Positions 19,189 to 19,554 of a stretch of 58,064 nucleotides of DNA are shown here, piece after piece. Every line of letters starts with the position of its first letter. Position 1 is the stretch's first letter. The position numbers were made by a program, and so were the translations under genes. The notes under the pieces are model-generated. The model made no database searches. It was given only the letters and a program-made list of their open reading frames with translations, and was not told the origin of the DNA. The stretch is from Microcaldota archaeon (GTDB lineage: Archaea > Micrarchaeota > Micrarchaeia > Anstonellales > J096), in the NCBI GenBank assembly GCA_015522475.1, contig WAMF01000003.1, forward strand, positions 97,043 to 155,106. Reading direction: 5' to 3'.

Positions 19189-19328
19189 GGAGAGAAATTG
19201 AGAGCAAAGGTTTAAAATCCCACTGTTAATTTTCGGCTAGCTTCTTCCTTCTCCTCCTTACTCAGCTCTATACTTTGCCGTCTCAACCTTTTTTCACCTT
19301 TCCATCCGGCGCTCGAAAAAAAGAAGAG

Positions 19329-19431
19329 TGGGCCTGCTGGGATTTGAACCCAGGACCTACGGCTGTCTTAGGCCGTTGTAGGCAGAGTGGCCCTATAAGA
19401 CCGTCGCTCTGCCAGGCTGAGCTACAGGCCC
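19329..19431 (-). tRNA. tRNA-Ile (TAT) with intron
   Basis: Minus-strand tRNA of 103 nt, 74 after splicing. The acceptor GGGCCTG/CAGGCCC is perfect, the D-arm is GCTC/GAGC, the T-arm CTGGG-TTCAAAT-CCCAG, and the discriminator A73. The anticodon stem ACGGT/GCCGT closes with one G-U. The precursor folds into a full bulge-helix-bulge: ACGGT-CTTA-[TAG]-GGCC facing GGCC-TAAG-[ACA]-GCCGT. Cutting after the second base of each bulge gives the loop CT-TAT-AA, so the anticodon is UAU and the intron sits at 37/38. UAU would read AUA directly, in contrast to the CAU-agmatidine route of most archaea. A TATA-like AAATATTT lies about 40 nt upstream. Confidence 0.92.
19365..19393 (-). other. tRNA-Ile intron (29 nt, canonical 37/38)
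   Basis: The intron begins with GGGCC and ends with TAAGAC on the minus strand. Its GGCC/GGCC helix and the CTTA/TAAG central helix, with two 3-nt bulges on opposite strands, form a standard archaeal splicing endonuclease site. Confidence 0.9.
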
Positions 19432-19554
19432 TCAACCTTACCTCAACCTTGGCTAGCCCCTTATTGAGAGAGAAATATTTAAAAGGCTAGCATAGAGCGA
19501 GCATAGAGGAAAGAATTAGCGGATAGCCTATATAGTAGCCTTTTGAGGTGTGGC

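Follow-up and report, generated by a model that had tools for sequence, protein, structure and literature searches.

An intron-containing tRNA-Ile(UAU) has already been described in Korarchaeum cryptofilum, which has no tRNA-Ile2(CAU) (PMC6000648, PMC8450103), and in yeast the tRNA-Ile(UAU) acquires pseudouridines at positions 34 and 36 through Pus1 in an intron-dependent manner (PMC11408192). In the archaeal H/ACA motif, an ANA box follows a lower stem of 7 to 9 bp and lies 14 to 16 nt from the pocket; in productive folds this distance is 14 or 15 nt, the sum of a 3' guide of 5 or 6 nt and a 9-bp stem, and degenerated forms bear an NCA box (PMC4652768, PMC7991803). The ACA box is held by the PUA domain of Cbf5 (PMC7991803). 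Intron-encoded guides of the box C/D type are so far known in tRNA-Trp, the guides described for tRNA-Met being separate sRNAs (PMC7994747). The tRNA-Ile(UAU) gene described here, from a Micrarchaeota genome, touches on the question of how archaeal UAU tRNAs separate AUA (Ile) from AUG (Met) without agmatidine.

The tRNA-Ile(UAU) gene and AUA decoding in the Micrarchaeota

The gene occupies positions 19,329 to 19,431 of the window (the entire 58,064-nt stretch of DNA that was analyzed) and, like every feature located below by window position, lies on the minus strand. It is 103 nt long, or 74 nt when spliced, and has a single intron. The Rfam tRNA model matches exactly these positions (60.1 bits, E = 1.5e-10), and ARAGORN, with introns allowed, reports a tRNA-Ile (tat) with an intron of 29 nt. 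The 5' exon (tRNA positions 1-37; 19,394 to 19,431) includes the anticodon UAU at 19,395 to 19,397, in which U34 is base 19,397; the intron, GGGCCACTCTGCCTACAACGGCCTAAGAC (19,365 to 19,393), is of the bulge-helix-bulge (BHB) type and is followed by the 3' exon (positions 38-73; 19,329 to 19,364). The BHB is perfect, with an outer helix ACGGT/GCCGT, a central helix CTTA/TAAG of 4 bp, and an inner helix GGCC/GGCC, and cleavage within its 3-nt bulges (TA|G and AC|A) yields a 7-nt loop, CTTATAA. The sequence-only reading had proposed an exact BHB, a spliced loop CT-TAT-AA, and a UAU anticodon, all of which are borne out by the Rfam model, ARAGORN, and the BHB pairing; its placement of the intron also holds, at the canonical 37/38 position. 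The acceptor and T arms are common to the spliced tRNA-Ile(UAU) and the tRNA-Ile(GAU) of the same genome, and the D-arm-plus-anticodon pattern is expected 0.00 times by chance in shuffled windows. Read from the sequence, the gene is preceded at a distance of about 41 nt by a TATA-like element, TTTTAAATATTT (19,473 to 19,484), and a T-run past its 3' end (19,316 to 19,322) is a possible terminator.

The window lies on contig C3 of a metagenome-assembled genome of 910 kb that is 88% complete. Several genomes of the host's order are tied to Candidatus Micrarchaeota records by DNA of 100% identity, and the host is accordingly placed in the Micrarchaeota. In the host, 44 tRNA genes were found. Two of these have a CAU anticodon, the initiator (L033) and an elongator with a 105-nt intron (L037); the 44 genes of this 88% complete genome include no third CAU tRNA. 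The host is also without tRNAs for Leu-UAA, Ser-GGA, Pro-GGG, and Arg-CCG, and because these four expected tRNAs are missing, the host alone cannot prove the absence of an Ile2 gene, but the phylum can. Across the phylum, a CAU D-arm pattern usually matches a single gene in each genome, and this gene has the elongator sequence. TiaS (PF08489) was found neither in the host nor in any of 295 Micrarchaeota genomes, of which 96 are good, and was likewise missing from another 49 genomes carrying tRNA-Ile(UAU), nearly all DPANN; the search was positive for four of four archaeal controls. The earlier suggestion that the organism may lack TiaS is therefore upheld, and the companion suggestion that it may use both routes finds no support, there being neither a third CAU tRNA nor TiaS.

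With a strict tRNA pattern, the UAU tRNA was recovered from 215 of the 295 Micrarchaeota genomes and 75 of the 96 good ones, and a genome without a match to the strict D-arm pattern does not necessarily lack the tRNA, as illustrated by genome G009. The pattern also matches records of Woese-, Pace-, Nano-, Aenigm-, and Altiarchaeota. The sequence-only reading had regarded a genomic UAU tRNA-Ile as a minority trait; no rarity is apparent here. Comparative evidence shows that tRNA-Ile(UAU) is, almost certainly, the sole AUA-reading tRNA of the host and replaces the agmatidine route. The UAU tRNA is the standard AUA solution of the Micrarchaeota, and the tRNA of the host belongs to a known kind that is the rule in its group. 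Isoleucine codons in the uS13 gene number 14 ATA, no ATT, and 2 ATC, in agreement with the 14 of 16 reported earlier. The broader claim that the genome favors ATA, and would use this tRNA heavily, stands insofar as the bias is real, with ATA accounting for 607 of 1,081 Ile codons (56%) in 56 open reading frames of the window, and is to be tempered insofar as the bias is milder than in uS13.

Several further observations were made in the course of this survey. In G009, which is 100% complete and has no pattern match, the Rfam model finds 33 tRNA loci, with no Ile tRNA among the 30 that were read (L185-L214); introns are present in about half of the tRNA genes found, and the Ile tRNA is probably disrupted by introns elsewhere. 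Intronless tRNA-Ile(UAU) genes are present in Patescibacteria (Parcubacteria, Buchananbacteria, and Pacebacteria) and one further bacterium (L105, L120, L134, L135, and L154). Record RFJG01000053.1 (L136) is labeled Euryarchaeota J096 and comes from the same Micrarchaeota genus as the host, and JAMCZL010000033.1 (L129), labeled Marsarchaeota, carries a tRNA-Ile(UAU) of the type found in Micrarchaeota families f12 and f13. Two short host contigs (C8 and C17) carry a second tRNA-Lys(UUU) and a second tRNA-Thr(CGU), a possible sign of bin contamination.

Predicted pairing of the intron with the D-arm and anticodon stem

Prior to splicing, the 5' half of the intron very probably pairs with the 3' strand of the D-arm and with the anticodon stem, forming a conserved hairpin that is followed by an ANA box, and this pairing is well supported. 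In the host gene, the 3' side of the D-arm (G18-G26; 19,405 to 19,413) is the 5' strand of an alternative lower stem, and intron positions +5 to +13, CACTCTGCC (19,381 to 19,389), are its 3' strand, with +7 to +13 pairing with 18-24 as seven contiguous pairs in the minimum-energy fold. In the same predicted fold, positions 29-33 (GGTCT; 19,398 to 19,402) pair with intron +1 to +5 (GGGCC; 19,389 to 19,393), the putative counterpart of an H/ACA 3' guide strand, and U34-A37 form the loop. The trinucleotide ACA at +15 to +17 (19,377 to 19,379) occupies the position of the conserved ANA box. The hairpin is predicted as both the minimum-energy and the centroid fold, and U34 is predicted to be the first unpaired base of the substrate strand.

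These features were compared among 67 distinct introns drawn from 17 families or subgroups. When the introns of relatives are compared by eye, their first 17 nt follow the consensus T G R C N C G T/C T C T R R T/C A C/T A, with consensus pairing of intron +6 to +14 with D-arm positions 18-26 and of +2 to +4 with positions 30-32. All nine pairs of the lower stem are present in 30 of the 67 introns, and at least seven in most. One alternative is that neither this tRNA-Ile(UAU) nor its BHB intron is anything out of the ordinary and that the pattern is drift among related sequences, and introns with canonical BHBs are indeed known in tRNA-Ile(UAU) (Korarchaeum; PMC6000648). Such an explanation is highly improbable, as several controls argue against it. 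First, pairing between D-arm and intron is 83% in register and 30 to 52% when the partner strand is slid by 1 to 3 nt. Second, the D-loop base facing +12 covaries with it (T-A in 34 introns, C-G in 14, and C-A in none), with T also facing G. Third, when D-arms are swapped among 22 representatives, the observed pairing is never reached in 5,000 permutations. Fourth, ANA is present at +15 to +17 in 51 of the 67 introns and the next best unrelated offset reaches about 0.2; a partial signal at +13 stems from the AATACA core. Fifth, only 54 of 200,000 shuffles of the first 20 nt of the host intron produce ANA together with at least eight of the nine pairs. Finally, introns of elongator tRNA-Met from the same genomes, where the D-arm is nearly identical, form the hairpin in only 1 of 21 cases. 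The conserved GRC at +2 to +4 could partly serve the inner helix of the BHB; yet families f12 and f13 splice introns that have no GRC.

The elongator-Met introns also lead us to reject the hairpin as a general property of tRNA introns. Nor is the pairing universal in DPANN, as many Woesearchaeota introns have no D-arm helix, and in this group conservation of the box does not extend to its first A (NCA). In Woesearchaeota and relatives, the only general feature is CA at +16/+17, and the helix occurs in a part of the introns. Many Woesearchaeota introns (e.g., L100, L138, L143, and L076) have an alternative start, TGACCN6GGTNCA, in which an ACC..GGT self-hairpin with CA at +16/+17 replaces the D-arm helix.

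In each of the 14 species computed, the hairpin is predicted to be more stable than the cloverleaf with BHB, the difference being 3.9 to 15.6 kcal/mol. It could simply be a folding device that forms first during transcription and serves to delay or time splicing, or to shield the immature tRNA from the synthetase and nucleases, with the ANA box being incidental. Such a role is in keeping with the prediction that the hairpin is the fold of lowest energy and is incompatible with the cloverleaf and BHB, and with the presence of other hairpins in lineages that have other introns. We regard this as somewhat unlikely, however, as it leaves unexplained the fixed position of the ANA box and its link with Cbf5 (see below). 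We found no earlier description of the intron fold in the literature searched, and it deserves experiment.

The elongator tRNA-Met introns have a pattern of their own. In 15 of the 21 that were read, including that of the host (L037, G000:C23:4550-4728; L255-L262, L267-L271, and L274), the heptamer TATGAGT lies beside CTGA or a near variant. TATGAGT is complementary to the anticodon loop, and the fifth base before the D'-like box faces C34. Judged from these motifs, the elongator-Met intron is likely an intron-encoded box C/D guide for its own Cm34. Taken together with the hairpin of the Ile intron, this layout suggests that both of the tRNAs that discriminate AUA from AUG bear putative intronic guides for position 34.

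Cbf5 and the intron motif

The distribution of the motif was compared with that of Cbf5 among the 295 Micrarchaeota genomes, with family counts tallied by hand. In families f12 and f13, none of 161 genomes has a Cbf5 match and none has the ANA motif, the introns being either AT-rich or absent; in the other families, Cbf5 is found in 127 of 134 genomes and the strict motif in 64. Of the 64 genomes with the strict motif, 61 have a Cbf5 match, and the remaining three are 77 to 86% complete. Families f12 and f13 are apparently archaea without H/ACA pseudouridylation. Many of their genomes are 90 to 97% complete yet have no Cbf5. Within the host's own family, genus g3 has kept the D-arm helix and lost the box (L237-L241), and its Cbf5 is a shortened protein of 238 amino acids with no Pfam PUA match (L307 and L309), whereas the host Cbf5 has such a match. 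The host protein is itself divergent, scoring 188 bits against a curated cut-off of 238, but aligns to the Cbf5 of solved H/ACA complexes and retains the catalytic motif GTLDP. In families f5 and f8, some genomes have Cbf5 and have nonetheless lost the motif.

Outside the phylum, with the prediction fixed beforehand, full-length Cbf5 accompanies 16 of 19 loci with the motif and none of 13 without it; these 13 represent approximately one clade, and their Cbf5 is truncated, divergent, or absent. When the helix is classed by computation alone (at least 77% paired), it occurs in 15 of 28 genomes whose Cbf5 is full and in none of 13 whose Cbf5 is weak (P = 0.001). Looser motif definitions reduce the significance to P values of 0.001 to 0.03, and all P values for Cbf5 and the motif ignore phylogeny, the independent losses numbering about three or four at clade level. 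The Pacearchaeota genomes G315-G327 encode a shortened or divergent Cbf5 that has no recognizable PUA domain.

A different account of these distributions is that the conserved 5' segment of the intron serves some other protein that recognizes the hairpin (the splicing endonuclease, or a pseudouridine synthase or methylase that works alone) and that the link with Cbf5 reflects shared genome reduction. Families f12 and f13, genus g3, and the Pacearchaeota are reduced lineages that could shed several RNA pathways together, and in yeast there is an example in Pus1, which works alone and requires a helix between intron and anticodon (PMC11408192). We nonetheless consider this account unlikely, because genome sizes in f12 and f13 (0.4 to 1.3 Mb) overlap with those of motif-bearing families, and because an ANA box with a 14-nt spacing is a hallmark of H/ACA RNAs. 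Whatever the role of the motif, UAU tRNAs are still used in the lineages that lack it, and the proposed modification of U34 is therefore not indispensable.

A possible self-guided pseudouridylation and its closest parallels

The predicted hairpin shares with H/ACA RNAs an ANA box at its 3' side and a lower stem of 7 to 9 bp, and the distance from A37 to the box is 5 + 9 = 14 nt (intron +1 to +14), which is within the H/ACA spacing if U34 is the target. The 5' guide strand is absent, so that just the 3' strand is present, and the substrate is contiguous with the stem in the predicted fold, from which an upper stem and a K-turn or K-loop for L7Ae are also absent. With none of these elements the intron is not a canonical H/ACA RNA, and a canonical RNP cannot form. 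We propose instead that it resembles the 3' half of an H/ACA motif, acting in cis. A trans-acting H/ACA guide is rejected because the tRNA itself supplies the 5' strand of the stem, and a box C/D guide because the 29-nt Ile intron, as read, has neither a C nor a D box.

A plausible explanation for the fold and its association with Cbf5, to which we give a probability of about one-half, is that the hairpin mimics an H/ACA RNA and that Cbf5 makes pseudouridine-34 in the precursor, which then refolds and is spliced. The hairpin of the unspliced precursor would imitate the H/ACA lower stem, the 3' guide duplex, and the ANA box; Cbf5 would dock on the ANA box through its PUA domain and find U34 (the candidate target, base 19,397), the first unpaired base 14 nt upstream, converting it to pseudouridine; and once modified, the RNA would refold into the BHB form for splicing. 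Pseudouridine-34 would be expected to aid the reading of AUA without that of AUG, as in the psi-A-psi tRNA-Ile of yeast. In the yeast case, pseudouridine-34 lets the tRNA prefer AUA. A more general reading, which we offer tentatively, is that the pre-tRNA-Ile(UAU) of DPANN archaea is an H/ACA-like substrate that guides its own modification, that pseudouridine-34 replaced agmatidine as the way of reading AUA but not AUG, converging on the eukaryotic psi-A-psi solution, and that lineages in which Cbf5 was lost gave up the motif and frequently the intron as well. If so, it would provide a reason for retention of the intron across DPANN phyla, an instance of a guide joined to its substrate in a single RNA, and a parallel, by a different enzyme, to the intron-dependent formation of pseudouridines 34 and 36 in yeast.

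Among archaea, Korarchaeum cryptofilum and Nanoarchaeum equitans share with the host the UAU anticodon and a missing Ile2(CAU), and in Korarchaeum the gene likewise has an intron and the tRNA-Ile(UAU) is akin to the tRNA-Ile(GAU) of its own genome (PMC6000648, PMC8450103); here the trait is shown phylum-wide and DPANN-wide, together with the absence of TiaS, and a conserved intron fold is described. The archaeal H/ACA guides have in common with the Ile intron a lower stem of up to 9 bp, the 14-nt spacing, and an ANA (elsewhere NCA) box (PMC4652768), but differ in that here guide and substrate are one molecule lacking a 5' guide strand, upper stem, and K-turn. In Sulfolobus solfataricus, an H/ACA sRNP forms pseudouridine-35 in pre-tRNA-Tyr and thus also modifies an anticodon base in a precursor (PMC7991803), although that guide works in trans. 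The guide of the archaeal tRNA-Trp resides within the intron of its own target (PMC7994747, PMC11408192), but is of the box C/D class and directs 2'-O-methylation, whereas neither of these boxes occurs in the Ile intron. A further parallel is yeast tRNA-Ile(UAU), which is the same tRNA, has its intron at the same 37/38 position, and undergoes pseudouridylation of the wobble base on the precursor alone, as proposed here (PMC11408192). The proposed enzyme is, however, Cbf5, of the TruB family, acting on an H/ACA-like fold, rather than Pus1, and the archaeal intron is predicted to pair with the D-arm, not with the anticodon alone.
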